DNA of 64,000 nucleotides from an uncultured Lachnospiraceae bacterium (GTDB lineage: Bacteria; Bacillota; Clostridia; Lachnospirales; Lachnospiraceae), in contig CANDGI010000005.1 in NCBI GenBank assembly GCA_947384285.1, positions 49,363-113,362 of the forward strand, written 5' to 3'. Position 1 is the first letter of the stretch. Each line of letters opens with the position of its first letter. The notes beneath the pieces were generated by a model, which saw only the letters and a program-made list of their open reading frames with translations, ran no database searches and was not told where the DNA came from. The position numbers and the translations under genes were made by a program. Shown here piece by piece: positions 26,547 through 63,456 of this stretch.

Positions 26547-29500
26547 ATGTCACTGCAATTTATTTTTGGAGGTTCCGGCAGCGGAAAATCCGACTATATA
26601 TACCGAAAAATATTGGAGGAATCAAAAGAAAGAAAAGATAAAACCTTTTTTGTCCTGGTGCCGGAACAGTTTACCATGCAGACACAGCGGGAATTTGTAA
26701 AACGCCAGGAGAACCACAGCATCATGAATGTGGATGTGGTAAGCTTTCCAAGGCTTGCCTACCGGATTTTTGATGAGCTGGGGATGGGAAGCCTTAATAT
26801 CTTAGAGGAAACCGGAAAAAATTTTCTGCTGCGGCGGGTAGCGGAAAAGCAGCAGGATAAGCTGAAATTGATTAAGGCCAGCATGAAGAAAACCGGTTAT
26901 ATTTCAGAGGTAAAATCTGTGATTTCTGAACTGACCCAGTACCGGGTGATGCCAGAGCAGTTGGATTTTTTTATCCAGGACGAGGAGCAGTCTCCACTGT
27001 TCCGTTATAAGATTCAGGATATCCAGACCATGTACCAGGGATTTTTAGATTATTTGAAGGGGAAATTCATTACGGCGGAAGAGCTGTTAGAGGTATTGGC
27101 CCAGGTGGCGGCGCAATCACAGATTTTAAAAAACTCTGTGATTGTGCTGGATGGATTTACCGGGTTCACTCCCGTGCAGTATTATCTGCTGGAGACCCTT
27201 CTTCTGCTGACCGATGAGATAGTGGTGACAATTACCTTGGATGAACGGGAAAACCCCTATCAATGCCAGGGCATCCAGGAGCTTTTTTATATGAGCAAAA
27301 AGACCGTCGGGACTTTCCTGGAGATTGCCCAGTGCAATTTTATTGAGGTAAAGGAACCCTTTTGGGTGCATCACGGTGGGAAGAGCCGTTTTGCGGGCTC
27401 CCCTCCGCTGCTGTGGCTGGAGCAGAATTTATTCCGTTCCCGGCCAAAACCTTACCCAGGGGAGCGGTTGCCGGAGCAGACAGCCAGCTGGGAGAGCAAT
27501 CTGCCAAAACCAGCAGCTGTCCAGGAGAACAATTTGCTAAAGGCGACAGCCAGCCAGGATATTCAAATGCTTTCCTTGCAGAATCCCAGGCAGGAATTGC
27601 ATTTTATCGCAAAAGAGATAGCAAGGCTGGTGCGAGAGGAAAACTACCGTTACAAAGACATTGCCATTGTGTGCGGCGACGTGGAAATGTACGGGAATTA
27701 CGCAGATGAGATTTTTGATACCTATCAGATTCCCTTGTTTTTAGATGCCAGGAAGAATATTGTCTTTCATCCAATGACTGAATTTTTAAAACAGGCGCTT
27801 TTTTTGGTGGAGCAGGATTTTTCCTATGAAGCGGTATTGGGATACTTCCGCTGCGGGCTTTCCGGCTGGACCATGGAAGATGTGGATATCCTGGAAAATT
27901 ACCTTCTGTCTGAAGGAATCCGGGGATTTGGGAGATGGCAGCAGAAATGGGTGCGCCGGGGATGTGTAAAATCCCAGGAGGAATTGGATCATATCAATAG
28001 GCTCCGGGAAAAGTTTGCAGACCAGATGGAGCCTTTGCGGAACATTTTTCAGAAAGAGGATGGGAATTACCATACGGTTTTGGAGGAATCCAGGGTTTTG
28101 TATATGCTGGTGTCCGGGCTGGATGTGGAGGGGCAGTTAAGAGAATATGAGGAATCCTTTCACCAGCAGGGGGAAACTGCCTTGGCAAAAGAGTATGCCC
28201 AGATTTATAAAATCGTCATGGATTTGATGGATAAAATGGTAGAGCTTTTGGGCGAAGAGCGGATGAATGTGCGGGAATACCGGGAAATATTGGAGGCAGG
28301 CCTGGAAGCGGCGGCTGTTGGCATCATTCCGCCAGGATATGACAGGGTGGTATTTGGCGATATTGAAAGAACAAGGCTTTCCGATATTAAAGTGTTGTTT
28401 TTTGCCGGAGTGAATGATGGGCTGATACCAAAGGCAGAGGAGCATGGGGGAATTATTTCCCAGGCCGACCGGGAATGGTTTGCGGCCCATGGCATGGAGC
28501 TTGCGCCTACTGACCGGGAAAGAAGCTTTATCCAGAAATTTTATCTGTACCTGAACCTGACAAAGCCGTCCGAAAAACTTTATATTACTTGGTTTCGGGC
28601 CAGCCAGGATGGAAAGGAAGCCAGAAAATCCTATTTAATAGGGACAATTTCTAAGATGTTCCCAGAACTTCATCCCTTACAGGCAGAGGAAGGAGTTTTG
28701 GGAAGAACAGCGGAAACCTCCGCAATAACCGGGAGAGATGCTGGTGCCTGGGATGACAGGCCGCATGGACATCCTGCTGTGGAGGCTGGAGGCTTTTCTT
28801 GCAATGGAAAAAGGAGCCTGGATTTTATCACTACACCAGGCAGCAGCCTGAAATTTCTTGTGGAGGGAATCAAAGAAGCCAAAATGGGAAGGATTGATCC
28901 TGCATGGAAAGGCCTGTACCGCTGGTATCTGTCACAGGATGCATGGCGTGAGAAAGTCCAGCCATTATTAGAAGCTGCTTTTTACCAATATCATGCCAGC
29001 CCTATGGGGGAGGAGGCCACCCATGCGTTGTACGGCATGGTATTGGAAAACAGCGTTACCCGGCTGGAGCAGTTTGCGGCCTGTGCCTTCCGCCATTTCC
29101 TGCAATATGGATTAAGGTTGGAGGAGCGGATGCTGGGGGAATTTGCCCCGGTGGATATGGGAAATCTGTTCCATGAGGCCTTGGAGCGTTATTCCAACCA
29201 TATGGAGCAGGCGGGCTACCACTGGTTTGACGTACCGGAGGAAGTAAAAGAAGAATTGATGGATTTGGCCATAGAGGAAACCCTGGGAGCAGGATTTGGC
29301 AGTATCCTCTTTCAGGAGGCCCGGACAGCATACCTGCTGGAGCGGATGAAACGGATTTTACGGCGCACCATAGAGACCATTGCAGGACAGGTGGAAACCA
29401 GCCATTTTACGCCGGAGGGCTATGAGATATCCTTTTCCTTTGCAGAAAATTTAGACGCAGCCAATTTTCTATTAAGCGAAAAAGAAAAGATGCGGCTGAG

Positions 29501-30098
29501 AGGAAGGATTGACCGGATTGACACGAAAAAAGAGGAAAACCAGGTCTATGTAAAGGTAATTGATTATAAATCCGGGAACAAGGAGTTTCAGCTGTTATCC
29601 TTGTACCATGGCCTGCAATTACAGCTTGTGGTGTACATGAATTCTGCCATAGAGCTGTTGAAGCGGAAATACCCGGACAAGGAGGTGGTTCCTGGCGGCA
29701 TGTACTATTACCACTTGGACGACCCGATTGTGGAAGGAAATTCTGGCAGTACAGAGGAAGAGATACAGGAAAAAATCTTAGAGGAATTGAAGCTGAAGGG
29801 AGTTGCCGGGGAGGCAGAGGACGGCAGCGTCAGCAAGAAGGCAAAGAAGGCGGGGAGAGAAGAGTTCCAGATTTTATCCCAGTATGTAAACCATAAAATC
29901 AGAGATATCGGAAGAAAGATTTTTGATGGGGAAATAGAGGCGAAGCCGTATCAATTGGGAGATGATACCGGATGTGATTACTGCCCTTATTATGGGGTGT
30001 GCGGGTTTGACGTTTCTTCCCCGGGGTGGGAATACCGGAAGCTTGAGAACATCAAGGATGAAAAAGAAATCCTGGAAAAAATGAAAAAGGAGATTTGA
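26547..30098 (+). CDS. addB: ATP-dependent nuclease subunit B
   Basis: Subunit of the AddAB helicase-nuclease that processes double-strand breaks for RecA recombination. The 1183-residue protein has the N-terminal P-loop FGGSGSGKSDYIYRK and a C-terminal RecB-type nuclease domain (VKVIDYKSGNKEFQL). Cysteines for the 4Fe-4S cluster are seen in FAACAFRHFLQ and DTGCDYCPYYGVCGFD. Start ATG 26547 follows AAGGAGGCGG. Odd features: a Gln/Ala/Pro-rich insertion around residues 305-335, and at residues about 732-751 a stretch matching a dispersed 78-bp repeat found elsewhere in the window. addA begins 4 bp after its stop. Confidence 0.95.
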   Translation: MSLQFIFGGSGSGKSDYIYRKILEESKERKDKTFFVLVPEQFTMQTQREFVKRQENHSIMNVDVVSFPRLAYRIFDELGMGSLNILEETGKNFLLRRVAEKQQDKLKLIKASMKKTGYISEVKSVISELTQYRVMPEQLDFFIQDEEQSPLFRYKIQDIQTMYQGFLDYLKGKFITAEELLEVLAQVAAQSQILKNSVIVLDGFTGFTPVQYYLLETLLLLTDEIVVTITLDERENPYQCQGIQELFYMSKKTVGTFLEIAQCNFIEVKEPFWVHHGGKSRFAGSPPLLWLEQNLFRSRPKPYPGERLPEQTASWESNLPKPAAVQENNLLKATASQDIQMLSLQNPRQELHFIAKEIARLVREENYRYKDIAIVCGDVEMYGNYADEIFDTYQIPLFLDARKNIVFHPMTEFLKQALFLVEQDFSYEAVLGYFRCGLSGWTMEDVDILENYLLSEGIRGFGRWQQKWVRRGCVKSQEELDHINRLREKFADQMEPLRNIFQKEDGNYHTVLEESRVLYMLVSGLDVEGQLREYEESFHQQGETALAKEYAQIYKIVMDLMDKMVELLGEERMNVREYREILEAGLEAAAVGIIPPGYDRVVFGDIERTRLSDIKVLFFAGVNDGLIPKAEEHGGIISQADREWFAAHGMELAPTDRERSFIQKFYLYLNLTKPSEKLYITWFRASQDGKEARKSYLIGTISKMFPELHPLQAEEGVLGRTAETSAITGRDAGAWDDRPHGHPAVEAGGFSCNGKRSLDFITTPGSSLKFLVEGIKEAKMGRIDPAWKGLYRWYLSQDAWREKVQPLLEAAFYQYHASPMGEEATHALYGMVLENSVTRLEQFAACAFRHFLQYGLRLEERMLGEFAPVDMGNLFHEALERYSNHMEQAGYHWFDVPEEVKEELMDLAIEETLGAGFGSILFQEARTAYLLERMKRILRRTIETIAGQVETSHFTPEGYEISFSFAENLDAANFLLSEKEKMRLRGRIDRIDTKKEENQVYVKVIDYKSGNKEFQLLSLYHGLQLQLVVYMNSAIELLKRKYPDKEVVPGGMYYYHLDDPIVEGNSGSTEEEIQEKILEELKLKGVAGEAEDGSVSKKAKKAGREEFQILSQYVNHKIRDIGRKIFDGEIEAKPYQLGDDTGCDYCPYYGVCGFDVSSPGWEYRKLENIKDEKEILEKMKKEI
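28741..28800 (+). repeat. Degenerate in-frame copy of the 78-bp repeat inside addB
   Basis: Bases 28759-28798 match the intergenic copy at 54740-54779 at roughly 34 of 40 positions with one single-base gap: GGCCGCATGG, CATCCT, CTGTGGA and GGAGGCTTT are shared blocks. Here it is translated as RPHGHPAVEAGGF and the addB frame is preserved. Confidence 0.7.
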
Positions 30099-36033: not shown

Positions 36034-37464
36034 ATGAGTAACTACGACGTGATTATCGTAGGGGCAGGACCATCCGGTATTTTCTGTGCCTATGAATTGA
36101 TCCATCAAAAACCAGAACTTAGAATCTTAATGCTGGAGAAGGGCAGAAGGATTGAGGAGCGGCAATGCCCCAAACGGAAGACAAAGGTCTGCGTAGGATG
36201 CCAGCCTTGTTCTATCACAACAGGATTTGCAGGCGCAGGAGCCTTTTCCGACGGCAAGCTGTCTCTTTCCCCGGATGTGGGAGGGAACCTTCCAGAAATA
36301 TTAGGCTATGAGAAGGCAGCGGAATTGATTCAGGAATCGGATGATATTTATCTGAAATTCGGCGCAGACACTAGTGTTTATGGGGTAGGAAAGGAAAAAG
36401 AAATCCGGGAAATCAGAAGGAAGGCCATTAATGCCAATCTGAAATTAGTAGAATGCCCCATCCGCCATTTGGGTACTGAGGAAGGATATAAGATTTATAT
36501 GCGCCTGCAGGAGCATCTGCTAACCCAGGGCGTAGAAATGAAATTCGGAACCATGGTGGAAAATATCATTGTGGAGGATGGCAGGGCAAAAGGTGTGATT
36601 GCTATGAAAGTCTCCGGTTTCCACAGCGGGATGGACAGACAGGCTGAAAAATTTTATGGAACGGAGATTGTCTGTGCCATAGGAAGGGAAGGCGCAGACT
36701 GGTTCAGCCATGTGTGCAAAGAGCATAGGATTGAGACAAAAGTCGGCACAGTGGATATCGGCGTCCGGGTGGAAGTCCGGGATGAAGTGATGGAATTTTT
36801 GAACCAGAATCTTTATGAAGCCAAATTGGTTTACCACACGCCCACCTTTGATGATAAAGTGAGGACTTTCTGCACCAACCCGTCTGGGGAGGTGGCAACA
36901 GAATATTATGACGACGGCCTTGCGGTGGTCAATGGCCATGCCTACAAATCCAGCGATTTGAAAACATGCAATACGAATTTTGCGCTGCTGGTGTCCAAGA
37001 ATTTTACCAAACCCTTTAAGACGCCCATCGAATATGGCAAACAGATTGCCCAGCTGTCCAATATGCTTTGCGACGGCAGGATTTTAGTCCAGACCTTTGG
37101 AGATTTCCGCCGGGGAAGACGGACCACAGAGGAGCGGCTTTGCAGGAATAATCTGATTCCCACGTTGAAGGATGCGGTGCCGGGAGATTTATCCTTGGTT
37201 TTTCCCCACCGGATTATGGTAGATATTGAGGAGATGATTCTGGCTCTGGATAAGGTGACGCCGGGAATCGCCAGCGACGAGACGCTGCTCTACGGGGTGG
37301 AGGTAAAATTCTATTCCAACAAAGTTGTGGTAAATCAAGATTTTGAAACGAATGTTGCTGGCCTTAGGGCTATTGGGGATGGGGCTTCTGTCACAAGAGG
37401 GCTCCAGCAGGCATCTGCCAATGGTCTGAGCGTGGCGCGCAGCATTTTAAATAAAATCAATTAG
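36034..37464 (+). CDS. FAD-dependent oxidoreductase (NAD(P)/FAD family)
   Basis: A 476-residue flavoprotein with the FAD-binding Rossmann start YDVIIVGAGPSGIFCAYEL, a cysteine-bearing stretch CPKRKTKVCVGCQPCSITTG, the AGAFSDGKLSLSPDVGG block, and RAIGDGASVTRGLQQASANG at the C-terminus that closes the FAD site. Such proteins are widespread in Clostridia; the substrate is unknown. Residues about 190-206 (AMKVSGFHSGMDRQAE) coincide with a copy of the dispersed 78-bp repeat, apparently an in-frame insertion ahead of the conserved GREGADWF block. Ribosome site AGGAGAGAAC. Confidence 0.92.
   Translation: MSNYDVIIVGAGPSGIFCAYELIHQKPELRILMLEKGRRIEERQCPKRKTKVCVGCQPCSITTGFAGAGAFSDGKLSLSPDVGGNLPEILGYEKAAELIQESDDIYLKFGADTSVYGVGKEKEIREIRRKAINANLKLVECPIRHLGTEEGYKIYMRLQEHLLTQGVEMKFGTMVENIIVEDGRAKGVIAMKVSGFHSGMDRQAEKFYGTEIVCAIGREGADWFSHVCKEHRIETKVGTVDIGVRVEVRDEVMEFLNQNLYEAKLVYHTPTFDDKVRTFCTNPSGEVATEYYDDGLAVVNGHAYKSSDLKTCNTNFALLVSKNFTKPFKTPIEYGKQIAQLSNMLCDGRILVQTFGDFRRGRRTTEERLCRNNLIPTLKDAVPGDLSLVFPHRIMVDIEEMILALDKVTPGIASDETLLYGVEVKFYSNKVVVNQDFETNVAGLRAIGDGASVTRGLQQASANGLSVARSILNKIN
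36602..36648 (-). repeat. In-frame, internally deleted copy of the 78-bp repeat inside the FAD oxidoreductase gene
   Basis: Bases 36602-36626 match 43376-43400 at 23 of 25 positions. The homology then continues after a gap as GGATGG and CAGGCTGA, the same order as in the intergenic copy but lacking about 15 internal bases. Orientation is opposite to the copies at 54629-54784. The gene's frame is preserved. Confidence 0.75.
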
Positions 37465-43323: not shown

Positions 43324-43375
43324 AAATACCCCTTCTTTCTTATAATTTAATTTGTAATGTCTGATGCCCAGTGTA

Positions 43376-43446
43376 CTATGAAAGTCTCCGGCTTCCATAG
43401 TAAGGATGGCCATGCGGCCCGCCAAACGGCAGGCTGAGCATGATGG
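43376..43446 (-). repeat. Intergenic copy of the dispersed 78-bp repeat
   Basis: On the minus strand this matches the tandem pair at 54629-54784 along almost its whole length (shared blocks GGCGGGCCGCATGGCCATCC and GGAAGCCGGAG). It lies 53-123 bp upstream of the LRR gene start, so it may sit in that gene's leader or promoter region. Confidence 0.9.
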
Positions 43447-54365: not shown

Positions 54366-54626
54366 ATGGATAAAGTAGTGTTTCAGGCTCCCCAGAATGG
54401 GGAAGCCATTGAATTTTATGTGGTGGAACAGACCAAAATTAATGGTATTGACTACCTCTTGGTTACAGAAGAGGAAGATGGAGATTGCGACGCCTATATT
54501 TTAAAAGAGGTATTGCAGGAAGAAAATGATGAAGCCACGTATGAATTGGTGGAATCTGAGGAAGAATTGGAATATATGTCCAGAATTTTTGGGGAAATTC
54601 TGGAGGAAGTGGATTTTATTATGTAA
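54366..54626 (+). CDS. DUF1292 domain-containing protein (YrzB-like)
   Basis: An 86-residue acidic protein; the core INGIDYLLVTEEEDGDCDAYILKEV is typical of DUF1292. Role unknown. Its ATG directly follows the ruvX stop, which means translational coupling. Next expected gene is fur, which is broken here after a repeat insertion. Confidence 0.9.
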   Translation: MDKVVFQAPQNGEAIEFYVVEQTKINGIDYLLVTEEEDGDCDAYILKEVLQEENDEATYELVESEEELEYMSRIFGEILEEVDFIM

Positions 54627-54628
54627 AT

Positions 54629-54784
54629 AAACTCCCATCATGCGCAGCCAGCCGTCTGGCGGGCCGCATGGCCATCCTTACTGTGGAAGCCGGAGGTTTT
54701 CATAGTAAACCTTTATCATGCACAGCCAGCCGTCTGGCGGGCCGCATGGCCATCCTTACTGTGGAAGCCGGAGGCTTTCATAGT
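54629..54784 (+). repeat. Tandem pair of the dispersed 78-bp repeat
   Basis: Copy 1 54629-54706 and copy 2 54707-54784, over 90% identical, beginning 3 bp after the DUF1292 stop. Each contains a hairpin (CTGTGGAAGCC-GGA-GGCTTTCATAG type) and a GGCGGGCCGCATGGCC block. They sit between DUF1292 and a broken fur, where the operon would normally be tight. Confidence 0.97.
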
Positions 54785-54824
54785 AAACCCTCATCCAATA
54801 TGAACTTTACAGAAAGGTGTTGCG

Positions 54825-54993
54825 ATGCTCCAGGATGATTTTGAAAGAATTTTAAAAGAGCACGGATTGAAGAAAACAAAACAAAGAGTTTTGGTATGAA
54901 AGGCCTTATCATCCTGTGGAGATAAACATCGGACTGCGGAAAAAATATAAAATAATGAAGGCAGAGTTCCCGGAAATAGGATTTGCGAGATGA
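54825..54993 (+). pseudogene. Decayed Fur-family regulator
   Basis: ATG 54825, with AGAAAGGTG upstream, opens MLQDDFERILKEHGLKKTKQ RVLV, then an in-frame TGA (54897-54899). The same frame continues KALSSCGDKHRTAEKI, then stops at TAA; a shifted frame continues YKIMKAEFPEIGFAR. Together they spell the DNA-binding half of a Fur/PerR protein (LKKTKQR, then HxTAEEIY, FPEIGLATVYR). The metal-binding half is not recognisable; 54994-55134 only holds a frame with YGYCEACLDQKRR before rnj. At least one nonsense and one frameshift, so it is inactive. Confidence 0.85.
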
Positions 54994-63296: not shown

Positions 63297-63456
63297 GTAT
63301 AAGCGCGCAAAATTATGCCGTGAAAAAAGAGAATACTTGTCCAAAGGGACAGTGACATGGAAGGCTGATGCGAAGCATTATTAAAAATGTCTTCCGACGA
63401 TTTGCCGCCGGAGCGAAGGGAAGGGGGCATTTCATTGAAAAAAAGGAGGAAAACAA

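Follow-up and report, generated by a model that had tools for sequence, protein, structure and literature searches.

A dispersed two-hairpin repeat, probably mobile, between and within genes of a Lachnospiraceae genus

Background

In-gene palindromic repeats are best known from Rickettsia. The Rickettsia palindromic elements (RPEs) are hairpin repeats located both between genes and in frame within genes for conserved proteins, and are tolerated by at least one tested product; a review (PMC2229807) describes them as 105-146 bp long, with terminal inverted repeats, and specific to Rickettsia. Protein-coding palindromes of Wolbachia appear there as a reference title. REPs are palindromic sequences of 20-40 bp present in many copies, mainly downstream of coding regions but also inside genes, including recombination-repair genes of the recBCD type. 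According to the source (PMC3733652) they carry a GTAG or CGTC tag and occur predominantly as head-to-head dimers, those with the GTAG tag being tied to RAYT genes. Bacterial MITEs (for example, RUP, Correia/NEMIS and ERIC) are short, non-autonomous and dispersed (PMC2229807).

The repeat described here was identified in an uncultured Lachnospiraceae bacterium (GCA_947384285.1). As the first-pass annotation of the locus had proposed, it behaves like an RPE: it is palindromic and occurs in frame within protein genes as well as between genes. Instead of 105-146 bp with terminal inverted repeats, it has a 75-nt unit with two hairpins, ends that match in direct orientation, head-to-tail arrays and a host among the Lachnospiraceae. 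It resembles REPs in being palindromic, in its many copies, mainly 3' of coding regions, and in its presence within genes. It differs in that the unit ends in GTAA with no GTAG or CGTC tag, in that none of 18 arrays is of mixed strand (REPs form head-to-head dimers), and in that no link to RAYT genes was found, either in the incomplete source assembly, which holds a sub-threshold fragment, or at 19 Y1 loci of the genus. Like MITEs it is short, dispersed and apparently non-autonomous; MITEs, however, have terminal inverted repeats, whereas the ends of this unit are alike in direct, not inverted, orientation and no inverted pair was reported in 54500-54900 (9-base exact seeds). With no such tag, no RAYT link found and no terminal inverted repeats, the repeat is not filed as an RPE or a REP. 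The best reading, by analogy, is that it would work like one or the other.

Our literature search, with subscription papers mostly outside its reach, found nothing relevant on such a repeat in Lachnospiraceae or on its core sequence. The proposal of a protein-tolerated repeat family in this lineage is supported: of the two findings named in the first-pass annotation as refuting it, restriction to the window and presence of the segments in repeat-free orthologues, neither was obtained. In-gene REP-like repeats as such had already been described outside Rickettsia (PMC3733652).

Results

The repeat unit and its copies in the window

The window is the whole stretch of DNA analysed, 64,000 nt of contig CANDGI010000005.1. 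Copies were scored with a covariance model, R1, built on 75 aligned copies from three genomes: the source genome, G007 and G009. The features are as follows.

54635..54709, + strand: repeat unit 1 of a head-to-tail pair (R1 95 bits, E=4e-21; direct repeat)
54713..54787, + strand: repeat unit 2 of the pair (R1 95 bits, E=4.1e-21)
54639..54670, + strand: hairpin SL1 of unit 1 (fold of unit 2 and of the inverted copy; pair counts in 75 copies)
54679..54707, + strand: hairpin SL2 of unit 1, arms TACTGTGGAAGC and GTTTTCATAGTA (fold of unit 2; pair changes in 75 copies)
43372..43446, - strand: single intergenic copy, inverted relative to the pair (R1 98.3 bits)
28733..28805, + strand: eroded copy in addB (26547-30098), sense, residues about 729-753 (R1 26.2 bits, E=1.4e-4; orthologue alignment)
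36598..36650, - strand: eroded copy in the FAD-dependent oxidoreductase gene (36034-37464), antisense (R1 22.9 bits, E=9.1e-4; orthologues)

The unit is 75 nt long and recurs head to tail with a period of 77-78 nt. SL1 occupies columns 5-36, followed by a conserved joint and then SL2 in columns 45-73. In unit 1, SL1 comprises an outer stem (CATGC/GCATG), an inner seven-pair stem with one mismatch and a four-base loop. Most rows of the 75-copy alignment end in ATAGTAAA, that is, GTAA. Sequence like ATAGTAAA is present at the end of each unit and also ahead of the first, and the 12 nt ahead of the first unit tend to resemble ATAGTAAACCC, the end of the unit (45 flanks).

All the copies listed in the first-pass annotation proved to be real, with coordinates right to within about ten bases. 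For the tandem pair (given as 54629-54784) a direct-repeat comparison shows 92% identity between 54628-54705 and 54706-54783 with a 78-nt period, and the inverted intergenic copy (given as 43376-43446) has the highest R1 score listed above. The two degenerate genic copies were recovered in a plain alignment scan with scores of 29 (addB) and 24 (oxidoreductase); five first-order Markov shuffles of the window gave top scores of 15 to 17. They lie in opposite orientations and different phases, and both reading frames are open, also as described.

Two neighbouring features were observed in passing. An Rfam GA-cis RNA (RF02987, 47.2 bits, above the gathering score) lies at 63352-63438 (+). Just downstream of the two units, a short frame (54826-54900, +; about 25 codons) starts like a sequence of the sister genome G002, which then diverges; we take it to be, perhaps, the remnant of a Fur-like regulator.

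Covariation and folding

Among the 75 copies, 93.5% of cells hold standard pairs. Cells changed on both sides number 60, compared with 19.5 in shuffles, and none of 500 shuffles is as high. Of the five measures of covariation one is not unusual: the count of pairs showing a both-side change (6 versus 4.6, a value reached by 98 of 500 shuffles). Five of the six covarying pairs belong to SL2, where 5 of 12 pairs show both-side changes. G-T cells outnumber A-C cells in SL2 by 107 to 15, although 60 of the 107 derive from one consensus wobble. The corresponding figures in SL1 are 65 and 25, with 52 of the 65 from one consensus wobble; without it A-C cells (25) exceed G-T cells (13), which counts against strand-specific pairing in SL1. 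RNAalifold, unaided, predicts SL2 together with a short hairpin of the GGCC block in place of SL1 as drawn. Clearly, one hairpin, SL2, covaries; SL1 is the less certain of the two. The structure suggested for the repeat from its hairpin resolves into two hairpins of unequal certainty. When the two strands of each copy are compared, the element strand gives the more stable fold in 68 of 75 cases using RNA parameters and in 64 of 75 using DNA parameters.

Copy number, arrays and spread

The repeat is not confined to the window. In the source genome it occupies 73 sites with at least 97 copies, of which 95 are model matches at E<=1e-3 and two are the weaker genic copies of the window; the number is a lower bound since 150 of 1922 candidates were scored. 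Counting units less than 40 nt apart as one site, 55 sites are single, 13 double, four triple and one quadruple; the 18 arrays of two to four units are each of a single strand. Adjacent units in arrays are 93.5% alike compared with 83.3% for other pairs of the same group (these pairs are not independent), which points to local duplication. Contigs C3 and C47 of the source genome (end of L016 and start of L019), which are adjacent in G002, both break inside a repeat array; the repeat thus breaks the source assembly.

By DNA similarity, matches are present in 14 of 29 genomes of the genus, the source included: G009 has at least 51, G007 at least 32 and eleven others 1 to 7. The counts for the three copy-rich genomes are lower bounds, as part of the candidates was scored. 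In a sample of 299 genomes of the family, nearly all from other genera, the source genome alone matched at E<=1e-5, under stricter filters that sacrifice weak matches. Searching GTDB contigs with an exact pattern, which detects near-consensus copies only, names Eubacterium sp. S35_Bin1 (G009), Lachnospiraceae C51_74_MI_BP (G007) and Lachnospiraceae bacterium 3-1 (G002). Plasmid and phage records contained no repeat match. Six exact 17-base matches in viral contigs were taken as chance because the sequence around them reaches no more than 9.8-14.2 bits with the repeat profile.

Filled and empty sites in a sister genome

Of 67 sites with enough flanking sequence, 14 could be placed in the stretches of G002 analysed. 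Thirteen look empty by alignment, and at the remaining one, C11:13717, the two genomes share an eroded copy (40 bits in G002). The 13 were assigned by an automatic rule and include one doubtful case, C2:46668, where G002 may keep an eroded remnant; two further empty sites, one across C3/C47 and the other C47:10534, are hand-placed and come on top of the 14. In the shared copy (L042 992-1065; L303 2881-2959) SL1 is partly lost but SL2 still pairs, which hints that SL2 may be retained once inserted. G002 is not free of the repeat: the covariance model gave six matches at E<=0.1, in four places, in 460 kb of its other stretches. One G002 copy (L301 1456-1528, -) lies in the same intergenic region as the source C20 array in the opposite orientation; the two are separate insertions into one region.

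At some empty sites there is sequence resembling the end of the element, most clearly at the site spanning contigs C3 and C47. A test for a target motif gave p=0.03 to 0.076 on the 13 automatically placed sites with three motifs, and p=0.0005 to 0.0025 only when the two hand-placed sites were added. With TTTCATAGTAAA as the motif, the reverse strand scores equally well. The target signal, which would correspond to insertion at AGTAA-like sites, is weak, and since the element end and the empty site look alike, duplication and similarity at the target are not separable.

Copies in and around genes

Among the 73 sites, using a simple codon-usage gene caller, 42 are intergenic, 13 have a whole copy inside a called ORF, 13 lie over the end of an ORF and five have no called gene on one side. 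In our judgement four of the 13 whole-copy sites come from a miscalled start codon or from an ORF at the end of a contig (L007, L015, L139 and L041), which on this reading leaves nine. Clear internal copies occur in genes for a PseudoU_synth_2 protein, two Rce1-like proteins and an elongation-factor-like GTPase (Pfam names) as well as in addB and the oxidoreductase gene; in a PRTase_2/TRSP protein a copy lies between the two domains. Two readings occur among the sense copies and a third among the antisense ones. Repeat-encoded residues also form the C-terminal end of a histidine kinase and of an MscS-type mechanosensitive channel, the G002 channel having a shorter, different tail without them. 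From its sequence, an in-gene copy seems to lengthen its protein by about 10 to 25 amino acids and to leave it apparently functional.

Of 93 copies in loci of G007, G009 and Lachnospiraceae bacterium 3-1, one overlaps a called ORF by more than 30 nt; these loci were picked via near-consensus copies, include some regions twice and would let eroded genic copies escape. In 14 further regions of other genomes, six of 17 copies overlap a called ORF, mostly at its end or in a doubtful ORF. G001, a second species of the genus, has a near-intact copy (L288 1492-1564, +) within a DUF4135/LANC_like gene, presumably LanM-like.

Comparison with orthologues

If these copies were inserted, orthologues should lack the corresponding residues. 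Where the source oxidoreductase has 13 residues, 2 are present in 25 of 25 orthologues, a net insertion of 11. For the pseudouridine synthase, 20-21 residues are absent from 25 of 25 orthologues (self rows excluded). In both, the extra residues are sharply bounded. The PRTase linker is different and variable in 21 of 21 orthologues (self rows excluded). For addB, a recognisable copy is present in none of 26 genomes, by alignment or covariance model; at the place of 41 source residues, 18 have 2 and the other 8 have unrelated stretches of 6 to 42 (the count omits the truncated L102, and L106 and L107, second matches of counted genomes). The AddB linker holding the repeat (window 28660-28840; orthologues L079-L105) varies in length among relatives. 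The insertion first proposed for both genes is thus borne out more firmly for the oxidoreductase; that for addB is the weaker case, because eight genomes carry other residues at that place. The oxidoreductase and the pseudouridine synthase are the cleaner cases.

Between the source genome and G002, dN/dS is 0.023/1.275 for the oxidoreductase, 0.079/1.14 for addB, 0.159/2.037 for the pseudouridine synthase and 0.179/0.98 for the PRTase, giving ratios of about 0.02, 0.07, 0.08 and 0.18, which are rough because dS is near or above 1, and which also span time before insertion. On these values the host genes stay under purifying selection. Amino-acid changes on the source and G002 branches, with two outgroups each, number 11-12 versus 4 for the oxidoreductase, 50-59 versus 46-50 for addB, 20-21 versus 12 for the pseudouridine synthase and 18-29 versus 25-29 for the PRTase; slight relaxation is therefore possible in two of the four.

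Discussion

It is hardly credible that the genic matches reflect chance similarity in variable protein segments, with only the intergenic repeat being real. The addB and PRTase segments do sit in length-variable linkers, and the addB and oxidoreductase copies have low scores. However, other copies within genes reach 82.4 and 71.3 bits, which already refutes this explanation for the strong copies; the inserts in the oxidoreductase and pseudouridine synthase have sharp bounds; and neither the 95 orthologue loci scanned (398 kb) nor 239 kb of relatives' regions matching the window gave a covariance-model match at E<=0.5. Selection for a regulatory RNA or mRNA element (a terminator, leader or stability element), with the genic copies as by-products, also seems very unlikely, although it would accommodate the covariation of SL2, the strand-specific folding and the pairing retained by SL2 in the copy shared at the same site with G002. 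It would also fit the proximity to stop codons: 16 of 39 stop-codon distances are within 12 nt compared with 5 of 45 start-codon distances (Fisher p=0.002), a limit picked after viewing the list and with starts called less surely than stops. Against it, copies between same-strand genes show no significant orientation bias (21 sense, 12 antisense, p=0.16), only one of the 14 placed sites is common to the sister genome, and the pair in the window has no T-run after its hairpins. Nor does any Rfam family reach its gathering score at the repeat, where three weak microRNA-model matches fall far below theirs.

A non-autonomous relative of IS200/IS605 elements or REPs, moved as single-stranded DNA by a Y1 HUH transposase, is a possibility that we consider unlikely. 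The greater stability of the element strand with DNA parameters too, the AGTAA-like sequence at the junction and in several empty sites, and the frequency of Y1 genes in the genus (above the cut-off in 17 of 29 genomes) speak for it; the distribution of Y1 genes does not. The source assembly (83% complete) has only a sub-threshold Y1 fragment, and the repeat is found beside none of the 19 Y1 loci of the genus (best E=0.22). Y1 presence does not track copies: copy-rich G007, 96% complete, has no Y1 match, whereas G013 has eight and no copy. A RAYT/IS200 partner is thus not supported by the search of the source genome and 29 genus genomes, which yielded no mobilising enzyme. The repeats may also be the boundaries of a longer autonomous element, for which the genes called in loci L043, L044 and L046 were inspected through their first 60 residues.

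In our view the repeat is likely to be a mobile palindromic element, small and non-autonomous, whose single strand is probably recognised in its folded form and which has spread within a Lachnospiraceae genus with sites differing between sister species. Its movement is inferred from these site differences, from dispersal on both strands and from the in-gene copies. An enzyme acting in trans would move it, and insertion would occur at AGTAA-like sites resembling the element's own end, while arrays would grow by local head-to-tail duplication. Most copies lie between genes, often a few bases past a stop codon, and a minority inside genes or over gene ends; in-gene copies would survive where the phase reads through and the position falls in a linker, loop or terminus. 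A bolder version, which we hold to be doubtful, is that this is a class of protein-tolerated mobile repeat particular to this Clostridia lineage, which arose independently of RPEs and REPs and seeds new linker and tail residues in proteins. A putative enzyme would recognise the folded element strand and insert it at sites like its own end; this would account for the head-to-tail arrays and for insertion at AGTAA-like positions, among them the ones at stop codons.

The repeat is a family of in-gene palindromic repeats in a gut Lachnospiraceae lineage, which is unrelated to Rickettsia. As many of its sites look empty in G002, the two genomes provide before-and-after pairs, from which it could be learnt how foreign segments are accommodated in proteins and by what route repeats of this kind move.
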